Source: an uncultured Lachnospiraceae bacterium (lineage in GTDB: Bacteria; Bacillota; Clostridia; Lachnospirales; Lachnospiraceae). Taken from it: a stretch of DNA of 5,266 nt. The notes under the pieces were generated by a model. It ran no database searches. It was given only the letters and a program-made list of their open reading frames with translations, and was not told the origin of the DNA. How positions within the stretch are numbered: position 1 is the stretch's first letter; every line of letters starts with the position of its first letter. Location of the stretch: positions 1 through 5,266 of the forward strand of contig CAMZDH010000056.1 in the NCBI GenBank assembly GCA_947305345.1. Reading direction: 5' to 3'. Made by a program: the position numbers and the translations under genes. This document shows positions 1,019-5,266 of the stretch, in pieces.

Positions 1019-4000
1019 TTAAATTGCCTCTCCGCGGCTCCACTGCGCCTCGTAGAGGTTGTGATAAAATCCCTGTTTCGTAAGCAGCTCCTCGTGCGTG
1101 CCCTGCTCGACGACGTCGCCCTGATTGACGACCAGGATGTGGTCCGCGTGCTGGATCGTCGACAGACGGTGCGCGATGATGAAGCAGGTCTTCTCCTTCA
1201 TCAGGGCGAGCATCGCTTCCTGCAGGCGGATCTCCGTCCGGGTGTCGACGTTCGAGGTCGCTTCGTCGAAGATCAGCATGTGCGCGTTGAGGAGCATCGC
1301 CCGCGCGATCGTCAGAAGCTGCTTCTGTCCCTTCGAAAGATTCGATCCCTCATCCGTCAGCAGCGTATCGTACTGATCCGGCAGGCGCATGATGTAATTG
1401 TGGATCCTTGCGGCTTTGCAGGCCGAAACGACCTCTTCCATCGTCGCGTCCTCCCGGCCGTATACGAGGTTTTCGTAGATCGTCCCCGTAAAGAGCCAGG
1501 TGTCCTGCAGCACCATCGCGAACGACCGCCGGACGCTATCCCTTGTCAGCTCCCTCGTTTCCTTTCCGTCGATGAAGATCTTTCCGCCGTTGATGTCGTA
1601 GAACCGCATCAAAAGGCTGATGATCGTCGTCTTTCCGGCGCCGGTCGGTCCGACGATCGCGACGGTCTTCCCTGCGGGCGCGGTGAGCGAAAGGTCGTGA
1701 AGGATCACTTTATCGGGGGTATAGCCGAAATTCACGTGCGACATCTCGACGTCGCCGTTCACGTGCGTCAGCACCTCTTCGTGCTCCGAAAGCGGCGCTT
1801 CCACCGGTTCGTCGATCAGACGGAACACGCGCTCCGACGCGGCAAGCGCCGACTGGAGCTCGGCCACGATGTTCGCCGCCTCGTTGATCGGTCCGGAGAA
1901 CCGCTTCGAATACAGCACGAACGAGGAAATGTTGCCGAGCGAAATGCTGCCGTTCATGAACAAGAGAGCGCCGAGCATCGTCACGAACGTCAGCGAGACG
2001 TCGCCAATCGTATTGACCATCGGCCCGTTGAAGGCCGCCATGTAATCCGCCTTGTAATACGCGTCGACCGCGCTTTCATTATAGGCCTCGAACCGCCTCA
2101 CGGAATCGAGTTCCCGGTTGTAAGCCTTTAAGGTCCGCTGGCCGGAGATCCGCTCCTCGATGAAGCCGTTCAGCTCGCCGAGCTTTCCGCTGCGAGCGCG
2201 GAACAGGGGCCGCGTGATCATCGAGATCCGCCGCGTATAGAGGATCGTCAGCGGGATCGTCACGAGGAAGACCGAAAGCAGTACCGGCGAGATCGCTAAC
2301 ATCATAATGAACGACCCGATGACCGTGACCGCGCTGGACGCCAGCGTGACGAGATCGCCCGACAGGCTCGTATTGATCGTCGAGACGTCGTAGGTGATCT
2401 TGCTGATGATGTCGCCCGCCGCGTGCGTATCGAAATAACCGACGCGAAGGTGCAGGATCCGGTCAAACATCTCGCGTCGGATCGAGGAAAGGATCCGCTT
2501 CGTGATGAACGACATGATGAGCGTCGCGAGGTAGGAAAGCACCGCGGAGACCGCGACCGCGAGCAGCATGATCATGCAGTACTTTTCGACTTCCGTGAAC
2601 TGCACGAGGTGGGGACCCGCGCTGAGCGCGTCGATCGCCTGCCCCGAAAGCCGCGGCACCCAGAGCGCCAATACGTTCGTGAGGATCGTTAAGAGGATCG
2701 CCGCGATGAACGGGACCGGGCGCTTCAGCATGTAGCCCATGAGCCGCGCGAAAATGCGTTTTTTATTGACGTTCCGCGTCTCCTGCTTTTCGCGGTTCAG
2801 CTGCTTCCTGACGGTTTGGAGGCATTCCTTATGCATGTTCCGCTTCGCGAATGCCTTCTGCGTCTCGAATACCTTCCGGACGACGTCTTCGTAGGTTTCC
2901 GCGTCCCTGAACTTCGGATGTTCGCGGGCCATTTCAAGGAACGCCTGCTTCTCTTCTTCGCTCGGTTCGCTGCGGAGCTTCTTTCCCTTCTCCGCCGCTT
3001 CGTCCGTGCCCATCTGGGAATGCGCGATCTCGCGGTAGATCTCGCAGTCCTCCATCAGCTCCTCGTGGCTGCCGCTGCCGATCAGCTTCCCTTCGTCGAG
3101 GACGAGGATCAGGTCCGCGTCCATGATGCTGGAGATCCGCTGCGCAACGACGACGAGCGTCGTGTCCTTAAACTGTTCCCGGATCGTGCCCCGGAGCCTC
3201 GCGTCGGTCTCGTAGTCGAGCGCCGACGAGGAATCGTCGAGGACGAGGATCTCCGGATCGCCTGCCAGAGCGCGCGCGATGTAGATTCGCTGCTTCTGGC
3301 CGCCGGAGAGGTTCGACCCCCGGATCAAAAGCTCGCTGTCGAGCCCGCGTTCGCCGACGAATTCCGCCTGCGCGGCCTTCGCGGCCCTGAGGATCGTTTC
3401 ATCATCGATCTCCCGCCCGAACCGGATGTTCTCCCGGATCGAGCCGCGGAAAATGATGTCGTTCTGGAAGACCGCGCCGAACTTGGCCCGAAGGTCTTCC
3501 AGCGTATAGTTTTTCACGTCCCGGCCGTCGACGTAGACGTGGCCGGACGCCGGATCGTAGAACCGGAGCATCAGGTTCACGATCGTCGACTTGCCGGCGC
3601 CTGTCGCGCCGATGATGCCAAGCGTCTTTCCCTTCGGGAGTGAGAACGAAACGTCCTTTAAGACTTCTCCGCCGGAGCGGTAGGAAAAGGACACGTCCTC
3701 AAAGCGGATCTCGGCTTCCTTCGCGCGCGCCCTGACCGTCTCTTCCGGTTCTTCAGAGGGCTCTTTCACCAGCGTATCAGGCCTGGAGAGGATCTCCGCG
3801 ATCCGGTTGCCGGAAACGGCCGCCTGGGTGTACATCATGAAAAACCGCGTGATGAAAATGACCGCATTCAGGATCATCGTCACGTAGGTCATCATCGCAA
3901 GGAGCACTTCCGGCGCGGTCTTTCCGGCGTCGACCTGCCGCGCGCCGAACCAGATGATCAGCACGAGTCCGACATTCAGGATCAGCCGGATCACCGGATG

Positions 4001-4717
4001 CATTCCGCCCATCACGAGCGCCGCATGCTGGTTCTTTTTGACGACGTCGCGGTTGATCGTTTCAAACCGTTTCTTTTCGCTGTCGTCCTTCGACAGGGCC
4101 TTGATGACCCGGATGCCGTTCACGTCTTCCCGGACGATGCGGACGAAGTTGTCGAGCGCCTCTCGCACCTTAATGAAAAGCGGCCGACCGAACCGCATGA
4201 AGGCCAAAGCGGAAAGGAGCATGACCGGGATCAGCGCGAGCATGATCAGCATTAAACGGTAGTCCATGAATCCGGTGATGACGAGTGACACGATCAGGAC
4301 AAGCGGCTGACGGATGCCCATCCTTTGCATCATTCCGAGGAACTGATGCACGTTGTAAGTATCGGTCGTTGCCCTGGAGATCAGCGACGCACCGGTCACC
4401 TCTTCCTGGTCCGACATCGACAGATAACTGATCTTTGCGAAAAGCTCCAGCCGGACGCGCTCCGTCGTGTTCCTGGCAACGAGACTCGCCATGCGGTTCG
4501 CCTTGATGTTGCCGAAGAGCGCGAGCCCGCAGATCGCGAGCATCATCAGACCCCAGAGCACAACGTACAGCGGGTTCTTCATCGGCGCGATCGTCTGAAG
4601 CATCCGGGTCATCGCCCAGGGGATCAGCATGGCCATTGAAGTCGCAAGTGTTTTCACGATCACGACAAAGACGATCTTTGCCGAATAAGGCTTCATGAAC
4701 TTAAAAATCTGCCGCAT
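1019..4717 (-). CDS. Fused full-length type IV ABC exporter (TMD1-NBD1-TMD2-NBD2)
   Basis: This is a 1232-residue ATP-driven exporter in the cytoplasmic membrane, counted from the ATG at 4717. TMD1 (about 10-300) has six hydrophobic segments and the coupling region GIRVIKALSK. NBD1 (about 335-565) has Walker A GATGAGKST (370-378), Q-loop Q418, signature LSGGQ (470-474), Walker B ending LVLDD with Asp495 at the catalytic position, and Gln526 in place of the switch His. A charged, probably helical linker covers about 566-655. TMD2 (about 660-950) follows. NBD2 has Walker A GPTGAGKTT (1023-1031), Q1071, signature LSKGQ (1127-1131), Walker B with catalytic Glu1152, and His1183. NBD1 therefore matches the degenerate partner (TM287/BmrC/LmrC type) and NBD2 the catalytic partner (TM288/BmrD/LmrD type). 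Such partners are normally two genes of about 580-600 residues; here they are one uninterrupted frame. The substrate cannot be read from sequence; multidrug, lipid or peptide export are all possible. An in-frame GTG at 4730-4732 would add 5 residues but has no ribosome binding site. The gene shares a probable operon with the deacetylase-like gene downstream. Confidence 0.96.
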   Translation of the reverse strand: MRQIFKFMKPYSAKIVFVVIVKTLATSMAMLIPWAMTRMLQTIAPMKNPLYVVLWGLMMLAICGLALFGNIKANRMASLVARNTTERVRLELFAKISYLSMSDQEEVTGASLISRATTDTYNVHQFLGMMQRMGIRQPLVLIVSLVITGFMDYRLMLIMLALIPVMLLSALAFMRFGRPLFIKVREALDNFVRIVREDVNGIRVIKALSKDDSEKKRFETINRDVVKKNQHAALVMGGMHPVIRLILNVGLVLIIWFGARQVDAGKTAPEVLLAMMTYVTMILNAVIFITRFFMMYTQAAVSGNRIAEILSRPDTLVKEPSEEPEETVRARAKEAEIRFEDVSFSYRSGGEVLKDVSFSLPKGKTLGIIGATGAGKSTIVNLMLRFYDPASGHVYVDGRDVKNYTLEDLRAKFGAVFQNDIIFRGSIRENIRFGREIDDETILRAAKAAQAEFVGERGLDSELLIRGSNLSGGQKQRIYIARALAGDPEILVLDDSSSALDYETDARLRGTIREQFKDTTLVVVAQRISSIMDADLILVLDEGKLIGSGSHEELMEDCEIYREIAHSQMGTDEAAEKGKKLRSEPSEEEKQAFLEMAREHPKFRDAETYEDVVRKVFETQKAFAKRNMHKECLQTVRKQLNREKQETRNVNKKRIFARLMGYMLKRPVPFIAAILLTILTNVLALWVPRLSGQAIDALSAGPHLVQFTEVEKYCMIMLLAVAVSAVLSYLATLIMSFITKRILSSIRREMFDRILHLRVGYFDTHAAGDIISKITYDVSTINTSLSGDLVTLASSAVTVIGSFIMMLAISPVLLSVFLVTIPLTILYTRRISMITRPLFRARSGKLGELNGFIEERISGQRTLKAYNRELDSVRRFEAYNESAVDAYYKADYMAAFNGPMVNTIGDVSLTFVTMLGALLFMNGSISLGNISSFVLYSKRFSGPINEAANIVAELQSALAASERVFRLIDEPVEAPLSEHEEVLTHVNGDVEMSHVNFGYTPDKVILHDLSLTAPAGKTVAIVGPTGAGKTTIISLLMRFYDINGGKIFIDGKETRELTRDSVRRSFAMVLQDTWLFTGTIYENLVYGREDATMEEVVSACKAARIHNYIMRLPDQYDTLLTDEGSNLSKGQKQLLTIARAMLLNAHMLIFDEATSNVDTRTEIRLQEAMLALMKEKTCFIIAHRLSTIQHADHILVVNQGDVVEQGTHEELLTKQGFYHNLYEAQWSRGEAI

Positions 4718-4723
4718 GGTATA

Positions 4724-4730
4724 CCACCCC
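4724..4730 (-). promoter_or_regulatory. Ribosome binding site that decides the exporter start
   Basis: GGGGTGG on the minus strand ends 6 bases before the ATG at 4715-4717, a normal spacing. It overlaps the alternative GTG start (4730-4732), so that codon is more likely part of the binding site than a start. The resulting N-terminus MRQIFKFMKPY is typical of half-exporters. Confidence 0.65.
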
Positions 4731-4743
4731 ACTTTGAAGTAGT

Positions 4744-4772
4744 ATTATAGCGCACTTCTAAATATAATTAAA
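4744..4772 (-). promoter_or_regulatory. Sigma-A type promoter of the exporter operon
   Basis: On the minus strand a perfect -10 box TATAAT (4744-4749) is preceded by a 17-base spacer (4750-4766) and a weak -35 box TTTAAT (4767-4772, 3 of 6 matches to TTGACA). Transcription would begin near 4737, giving a leader of about 20 bases that just holds the ribosome binding site. That leader also argues against the GTG at 4732 as the start. The weak -35 box suggests help from an activator or modest expression. The match is by eye. Confidence 0.6.
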
Positions 4773-4931
4773 GCGTTTTTTGAAATTTTGAAATGATTTG
4801 GTAAAGTATCGACGGGCTGCCGATCCGGTTCTTCTTTGCCCGCTTACATCAATTGCTTCCCTCCCGAATCCGCTTTCCAAAAAACGTTCGTTGCGGTCAC
4901 TCATGGCCTTGATTCGCTTATTTGCATCCAT
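4758..4931 (-). CDS. Possible small ORF of 57 residues, unknown function
   Basis: The ATG at 4929-4931 is preceded by GAGGTGA, a 7-base match to the 16S anti-Shine-Dalgarno complement, with 5 bases between GAGG and the ATG. The product would be basic (MDANKRIKAMSDRNERF at the start, FQNFKKRFNYI at the end), with no membrane segment and no motif I recognise. Codon choice is AT-biased and unlike the two main genes. Its last codons overlap the exporter -35 box and its TAG lies 40 bases before the exporter ATG. No convincing promoter lies upstream. An in-frame extension to an ATG at 5003 enters the repeat array and lacks a ribosome binding site, so I prefer the shorter form. It could be a real small gene, a degraded gene remnant or chance. 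Confidence 0.25.
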   Translation of the reverse strand: MDANKRIKAMSDRNERFLESGFGREAIDVSGQRRTGSAARRYFTKSFQNFKKRFNYI

Positions 4932-4953
4932 TTTCACCTCGTCCGGGACTATC

Positions 4954-5148
4954 CCGTCAGCGTAATCGGTTTTTCTTCTGAGAACGCTAATGCTTGTGCT
5001 CATTTATTTAGCGTTTTCAGGCCGTCCAGTAAAAAGCGCTAAAAACAAGAGGCTTCGCCTTTAGTGTTTTTCAAAAAATCTACCGAAACGCTGAAATAGT
5101 GAGGTTTTCCTTTAGCGTCCTGACAAAAAAACAAAAAAACGCTAAATC
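4954..5148. repeat. Array of eight alternately oriented AAACGCTAAA-type motifs, about 26 bases apart
   Basis: The four-base cores (CGCT on +, AGCG for the reverse) start at 4959(-), 4985(+), 5010(-), 5037(+), 5063(-), 5089(+), 5114(-) and 5140(+). The intervals are 26, 25, 27, 26, 26, 25 and 26. Seven copies have an exact core and one (5063) reads CACT. Flanks are A-rich, giving a consensus near AAACGCTAAA; two copies read CGCTGA. Same-orientation copies are 51-53 bases apart, so the array can also be seen as a decayed 52-base tandem repeat with an internal dyad. The units at 5037 and 5089 share more, including AGG-loop-CCTTTAG. Neighbouring copies can pair as stems (for example AACGCTAA at 4983-4990 with TTAGCGTT at 5008-5015; TTTAGCGT at 5111-5118 with ACGCTAAA at 5139-5146). 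The 52-base period is not a multiple of three, which speaks against coding. Its function is unknown to me. Confidence 0.85.
5041..5069. terminator. Terminator-like hairpin within the repeat array
   Basis: AGGC (5050-5053), loop TTC, GCCT (5057-5060) forms a tight stem. It extends imperfectly through flanking A-runs and T-runs (5041-5049 with 5061-5069, two mismatches). Both strands have a T-rich stretch after the stem: GTTTTTTC on plus and TCTTGTTTTT on minus. It could stop transcription either way and would insulate the exporter operon from transcription entering from the right. The stem is short and the element is part of the repeat array, so it may simply be one of its dyads. Confidence 0.35.
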
Positions 5149-5203
5149 CTCGACACAAAAGGCACGAAAATGAGATTATACGCGTTTCTGCGAGCGGTGC
5201 CGG

Positions 5204-5266
5204 ATGGAGAACGACGCCCGGACAGTGAGTGAATCGCAGATTCACGAACTGAACGGCTCGTTGCCG
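5204..5266 (+). CDS. Possible 5' end of a divergent plus-strand gene, cut by the right edge
   Basis: From the ATG at 5204 the frame is open for 21 codons to the window end, starting MENDARTVSESQIHEL. The DNA turns GC-rich near 5160, like the coding regions here and unlike the array. The ribosome binding site for this ATG is poor. A better one (AAAGG at 5158-5162, 7 bases before an ATG at 5170) belongs to another frame that stops after 20 codons at 5232. Read back from 5204, the same frame is open to a TGA at 5171 and contains RFCERCRMEN, which resembles a CxxC zinc-ribbon start but has no start codon of its own. A divergent gene here would share the intergenic array with the exporter operon. 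Too little is visible to name a product. Confidence 0.3.
   Translation, partial: MENDARTVSESQIHELNGSLP
5229..5245. repeat. Perfect 7-base inverted repeat with 3-base loop
   Basis: GTGAATC, loop GCA, GATTCAC. There is no T-run on either side, so it is not an intrinsic terminator. It lies inside the possible plus-strand reading frame. A second small stem, CGGC (5254-5257) with GCCG (5263-5266), follows it. Either could be chance or an operator-like dyad. Confidence 0.4.

Follow-up and report, generated by a model that had tools for sequence, protein, structure and literature searches.

A likely dispersed repeat element in an uncultured Lachnospiraceae bacterium carries a lattice of alternating CGCTRA sites that may be read by a DNA-binding protein

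A stretch of 5,266 nucleotides from an uncultured Lachnospiraceae bacterium (the window, meaning the whole stretch that was analyzed) carries eight CGCTRA hexamers, one of them degenerate, in strictly alternating orientation between positions 4957 and 5145. With middling confidence, we propose that these sites belong to a dispersed, likely non-autonomous repeat element, and that their lattice, with sites about 26 bp apart, is cooperatively bound by a putative sequence-specific protein. What is kept of the element is a short core and the spacing, and cooperative protein binding is the best explanation for this. That a protein, rather than an RNA or a bare DNA hairpin, would read the lattice is our interpretation of sequence comparisons. 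For dispersed repeats in bacteria, hairpins or transposase ends are the usual explanation. A core and a spacing that are kept where about half of the spacer positions have changed, together with a congener in which the lattice persists with another core, would be the signature of a putative spacing-code protein, and this signature offers a direct route to finding the reader.

The starts of the hexamers in the window are separated by 28, 23, 29, 24, 28, 23 and 28 bases (Table 1), and the starts of neighboring 10-mers by 25-27 bases. We compared this regularity with dinucleotide-preserving shuffles of the region 4900-5199. When the motif was fixed as ACGCTAA with one mismatch and steps of 23-29 bp, eight alternating sites were observed and at most two occurred in 200 shuffles. 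When any 7-mer and four step ranges were allowed, 100 shuffles gave at most four sites, compared with the eight observed. These results bear out an earlier note on this DNA, made from the sequence alone, which had described eight strictly alternating copies at 25-27 base steps and judged them more regular than chance would give. The DNA helix makes one turn in about 10.5 bp, and 52 bp thus correspond to about five turns, which would place sites of like orientation on one face of the helix; we adopted this arithmetic from the same note. Tandem Repeats Finder reported two short A/T-rich repeats in the window and did not report the array. A protein-coding repeat was ruled out because the period of about 52 bp is no multiple of three, and an 81-aa ORF at 4758-5003, which matched no Pfam family at E 1, was not counted as a gene. 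A CRISPR array, with same-orientation repeats and unique spacers, was rejected as well, since the sites in the window alternate strictly.

Table 1. Positions of the array, its sites and neighboring features in the window
Feature	Position	Strand	Remark
Two-domain ABC transporter gene	1019..4732	-	two stretches each of PF00664 and PF00005; 5' side toward the element
Repeat element, type A	4879..5182	.	304 ungapped bp in common with contig C4 (241 identical); flanks differ
ATCCATTTT, possible inverted counterpart of the right end	4926..4934	-	by eye, weak
Site 1	4957..4962	-	TCAGCG (CGCTGA on the - strand); weaker copy
Site 2	4985..4990	+	CGCTAA
Inner palindrome 1, head-to-head, sites 2-3	4985..5013	.	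pairing helix 1
Site 3	5008..5013	-	TTAGCG
Site 4	5037..5042	+	CGCTAA
Inner palindrome 2, sites 4-5	5037..5066	.	helix 2; two-sided change in three pairs
Site 5	5061..5066	-	TTAGTG (CACTAA), degenerate; weaker copy
Site 6	5089..5094	+	CGCTGA
Inner palindrome 3, sites 6-7	5089..5117	.	helix 3
Site 7	5112..5117	-	TTAGCG
Site 8	5140..5145	+	CGCTAA
Promoter-like match TCGACA-18-GATTAT (9/12)	5150..5179	+	within the element, to the right of site 8; possibly chance; missed by other criteria
Right end AAAATGAGAT	5167..5176	+	same in 4/4 aligned copies

In the host assembly (G000), which comprises 880 kb in 166 contigs and is 55% complete, three further arrays lie on contigs C4, C109 and C5, and a fragment lies at the end of contig C84. 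At C84 (L021:1500-1532) the contig stops inside an array end, so the missing portion of the genome may hold more copies. The window and C4 (type A) share 304 ungapped bases at 79% identity, and C109 and C5 (type B) share 309 ungapped bases at 89% identity; in both pairs the flanks differ. We built a sequence model from the four arrays and searched G000 and 14 congeners with it. In G000 it matched the four arrays, pieces of them and, weakly, one place on C100 (E 0.06). The copy in the window lies upstream of the ABC transporter gene, in the AT-richer end region of the window. The C4 array lies between divergent genes for GAPDH and a methyltransferase, and the C5 array is flanked by a proA-like ORF (by eye) and an amidohydrolase-like ORF (PF07969, below the curated cut-off). 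Because arrays are found at four unrelated intergenic or gene-edge places, a replication or partition-type site, as had been suggested from the sequence of the window, is unlikely.

The amidohydrolase-like ORF on C5 (L005:1475-2230) has a NagA-like start by eye and ends inside the array; its remainder is absent from the stretch read, and a misassembly at the repeat is a possible cause of the truncation. Beside the type B elements, GAGGCTGTTAAA (L003:1463-1480, L005:1210-1225) resembles an insertion-sequence end by eye.

Alignment of type A with type B gave 200 columns with zero indels, and the series of steps in the window is common to all four arrays. Differences in the CGCTA core number 1-4 among 35 positions in each of the four A-B comparisons, against 67-74 among 135 in the remaining compared columns (Fisher p 2e-9 to 2e-5). 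The spacers have thus changed at half of their positions without an indel, which suggests, with the neutral indel rate taken from general knowledge, that the spacing is under constraint. A core and spacing that are kept between types whose spacers have changed argue for constraint on both and against neutral decay. Within type B the contrast between core and spacer gave p values of 0.001-0.008 (one site mask being two bases off) and, in a second comparison, 0.034. Within type A it was not significant (window/C4, p 0.065-0.17), and the first C4 site reads CGCTAT. Beyond the aligned stretch, the C109 and C5 arrays have one step of 44 instead of about 24 (in C109, 46 between 10-mers). Alternatively, a tandem repeat could have expanded and been copied by ordinary duplication, and the arrays would be its neutral remnants. 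Such an origin would give strict alternation automatically if the repeat was a palindrome of period 52, and it fits the window/C4 pair, where the core shows no significant advantage in conservation over the spacers. We nevertheless consider it very unlikely given the comparison between types, in which the core is almost unchanged, and given a congener array in which the core has shifted and the lattice has not.

That array was found in congener G006 (contig C40; L125:1535-1726). It has eight alternating sites and is the only recognizable array among the 14 congeners; its match to the four-array model has an E value of 0.002 for one genome, or about 0.03 over 14. In order, its sites read CGCTGA, CGCTTA, CGCTTA, CGCTGA, CGCTTA, CGCTTC, TGCTTA and CGCTTA, at steps of 29, 24, 29, 23, 29, 23 and 29. 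It lies between thioredoxin-like and DeoR-like genes (by eye), at a locus unlike that in the window. When the motif was re-chosen in each of 60 shuffles, the G006 array scored 44 for six letters with one mismatch, compared with at most 26 in shuffles. For seven letters with two mismatches it scored 49, compared with at most 35, and one shuffle reached seven sites. The G006 spacers are no more similar to those of the window (0.38) than unrelated spacers are (0.39). A shifted core (CGCTTA) on an unchanged lattice would be the trace expected of a co-evolving reader.

We also examined the locus of the window in relatives. ABC transporter homologues are present in 7 of 14 congeners at 49-62% identity, and in none of these loci did a scan yield a chain longer than two sites. 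Five of them were read over 690-700 bp upstream, and a sixth has just 27 bp there. As an empty-site comparison, this gives seven loci without an array, but synteny is too poor for them to count as clean empty sites, and one locus has the 27 bp upstream. The earlier note had held that an array missing from this locus in close relatives would point to chance or neutral decay. The homologues examined do lack it, and this does not imply chance, since the array is dispersed. Elsewhere in the 14 congeners, the exact inner pattern yielded one isolated hairpin (G007), and 11 weaker model matches in seven other congeners (E 0.03-0.84) contained no chain of more than three sites with CGCTAA, CGCTTA or CGCTGA. 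A relaxed triple pattern run on 397 family genomes (two congeners among them) gave eight matches per strand in G000. Outside G000 there were nine single matches in nine family genomes, compared with four for the backward control. An order-level match (G040) was rejected because, by eye, it has no array.

The inner unit, CGCTAA...TTAGCG, is 29-30 bp long and recurs every ~52 bp. We counted named pairs on the four related rows and compared them with 500 shuffles. For the inner (head-to-head) pairs, 79.5% of cells were paired, a level reached in 4 of 500 shuffles, and the covariation score was likewise equaled in only 4 of 500. Four inner pairs had changed on both sides, a number that 374 of 500 shuffles match, and three of the four form one AAA/TTT block: the flanks of inner palindrome 2 read AAA/TTT in the window and TTT/AAA in the type B copies. 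For the outer (tail-to-tail) pairs, 63.5% were paired with zero two-sided changes, and the score was equaled in 462 of 500 shuffles. Because the inner pairs pair and covary somewhat better than the outer ones, these data, which are weak, lean toward the head-to-head pair as the likelier unit, with a period near 52 bp. Inside inner palindrome 1, the spacer box TGCTTNNNCTCATTT (4991-5005) is invariant in 4/4 aligned copies. The pairing data are compatible with either a protein dimer or a hairpin and cannot tell the two apart.

A hairpin is the basis of an explanation at the RNA level, also raised in the earlier note, in which pairs of neighboring copies, once transcribed, form alternative hairpins that terminate transcription in both directions or stabilize transcripts. 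The folding of both strands does surpass that of shuffles (z -2.8 and -3.7, with 1 of 200 shuffles as good per strand), and the level of inner pairing, its covariation score and the four two-sided changes are what such an element could leave. However, the pairing evidence is weak. It comes from only four related rows, the two-sided changes are no more numerous than shuffles give and come mostly from one block, and the outer pairs have none. Furthermore, terminator-like sites in 4600-5266 number 2 compared with 1.0 expected, there are 0 matches to an Rfam family at the gathering score, and hairpins by themselves would not demand a fixed distance from one to the next. We therefore regard an RNA-level role as unlikely.

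In the protein-bound element that we favor, a putative sequence-specific DNA-binding protein, probably dimeric, would bind the lattice cooperatively. Each head-to-head pair would be one dimer site, and the distance of ~52 bp (about 5 turns) would set successive dimers on one face of the helix. The protein itself might move, silence or organize the element. A cooperative DNA-binding protein had been among the suggestions of the earlier note. It gains indirect support from copies that retain core and spacing, with no indel, despite changes at about half of their spacer positions. No candidate for the protein itself was found: in G000, at 55% completeness, we found no binding protein, no transposase and no target-site duplication.

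We then compared the arrays with known dispersed repeats. The accessible part of one account of REP sequences (PMC2817692) describes their BIMEs as dispersed, regularly spaced, alternating units that are protein-binding sites. REPs have their own imperfect palindrome, many have a GTAG start, and they are usually present in more than 100 copies (PMC2817692, same part). The arrays here share the regular spacing, the alternation and the extragenic position (the C5 array abuts the truncated amidohydrolase-like ORF). In contrast, the unit here is a non-palindromic ~7-mer that pairs only with its neighbors, the site listing has no GTAG or similar unit start, and four arrays plus a contig-end fragment were found in the 55% of the genome available. 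The general look is thus BIME-like, but the arrays fall outside the REP/BIME class in three respects: the unit palindrome, the GTAG start and the copy number. Mobilization by a RAYT (Y1) transposase, an enzyme that recognizes hairpins in single-stranded form, would suit the dispersal outside intact genes and the alternating orientation. It is very doubtful here, given these differences and the absence of a Y1_Tnp match from the 55% complete host genome; 4 of 14 congeners have one.

Miniature inverted-repeat elements and small mobile sequences are short and dispersed and have no evident gene, as stated in the accessible part of PMC2229807, and the element in the window is like them in all three respects. 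It differs in that its interior array is the best conserved part. The right end AAAATGAGAT is conserved and its left counterpart is weak by eye; no clear terminal inverted repeat was found, and no target-site duplication was evident by eye in the flanks of either copy pair.

Database searches returned two 32-bp matches at E 1 in a plasmid collection, no match in a phage collection and, among viral contigs, two triple-pattern matches and one motif match. The viral motif match (L115) falls within an ORF or borders it and was taken as chance, and the two triple-pattern matches (L034, L035) were set aside because they have three sites each. Literature searches by sequence strings, DUF234 or topic found no description of the array among the matches listed, which looked unrelated for the strings and mostly concerned type VI secretion for DUF234; the accessible part of PMC2267715 contains none either. 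On the basis of this limited literature search, the array seems not to be in print.

The same lattice was sought beyond the family with a triple pattern in 84,980 species genomes, and 34 stretches were returned. The pattern permitted only certain gaps, so a shared lattice is partly built into the search. Array length in Phocicoccus and the position of sites in ATPase promoters are not imposed by it. Phocicoccus schoeneichii accounts for 6 of the 34 stretches. In six stretches of its genome that were retrieved afterward, 22-39 sites were counted per stretch, almost all of them at 23/29, and the spacers vary from array to array. These 52-bp arrays (L054, L064, L066, L155-L160), of up to 39 alternating CGCTAA sites, resemble the window in core, alternation and the 23/29 steps. 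They differ in consisting, where inspected, of near-identical tandem units and in having as many as 39 sites, in a comparison where the pattern partly fixed the lattice. No published name for them was found in the literature searched. Clostridiales RGIG5941 has two related arrays with 22/29-30 steps.

Of the 28 stretches outside Phocicoccus, 12 lie directly upstream of an ATPase_2 (DUF234-type) gene (L039, L042, L050, L051, L053, L058, L059, L060, L062, L065, L067, L069); 11 of these genes are over the Pfam cut-off and one contig-edge piece is below it. Their hosts are labeled Clostridia and relatives, Spirochaetales and Bacteroidota, and their arrays consist of alternating GGCGCTAAC/GTTAGCGCC-like motifs. 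No ATPase_2 gene was seen near 9 of the remaining 16 stretches, judged from neighbor lists by eye with four scanned. At 9 of the 12 loci, TTGNNN and a -10-like box are separated by a 17-bp spacer, and the GGCGCTA core begins at the third base of this spacer; when the 12 regions were dinucleotide-shuffled 100 times, no more than 1 of 12 loci had this register. The three loci without it are Bacteroidota by record label. These data suggest that the upstream array is a predicted operator, possibly an autoregulatory one. We found no account of the regulation of this widespread family in the literature searched.

Since arrays lie inside the predicted promoters of 9 of 12 ATPase_2 genes, such lattices are plausibly operators elsewhere, and the array in the window could likewise be an operator array of one transcription factor that controls the adjacent genes. 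It shares the alternating CGCTAA core and the lattice with the ATPase_2-upstream arrays, whose promoter register shuffles rarely reproduce. Moreover, the C4 array sits between divergent genes, and a weak promoter-like match lies to the right of site 8. However, a promoter search found no promoter that overlaps the sites in the window, and the genes beside the host arrays are unrelated, as opposed to the one gene type next to the ATPase_2 arrays. The ATPase operators read GGCGCTAAC and not AAACGCTAAA, and the lattice match is partly imposed by the search pattern. The 55% complete host genome has no ATPase_2 gene above the cut-off, with one weak match below it, and no ATPase like that of L058 at E 1e-40. 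An operator role in the host is quite unlikely on this evidence.

A broader idea joins these observations to the protein-bound element: a single kind of DNA-reading protein, present throughout Bacillota, Bacteroidota and Spirochaetota, might recognize a common lattice of alternating CGCTAA sites with 23/29-bp steps and a 52-bp period. Autoregulatory operators of ATPase_2-wHTH genes, the Phocicoccus arrays and the dispersed elements would then form a cross-phylum, geometry-coded system. We offer this as a long shot; no description of such a system was found in the literature searched. Among 291 genomes of the class there are four more distant ATPase_2-type homologues, none of them in G000. Upstream of two of the three whose upstream regions were inspected (L120 and L122), different inverted repeats, of the GGCGAAGTAT and GGCGATTTATAA types, lie near the start codon by eye, as if the operator sequence varied by ATPase_2 subfamily.
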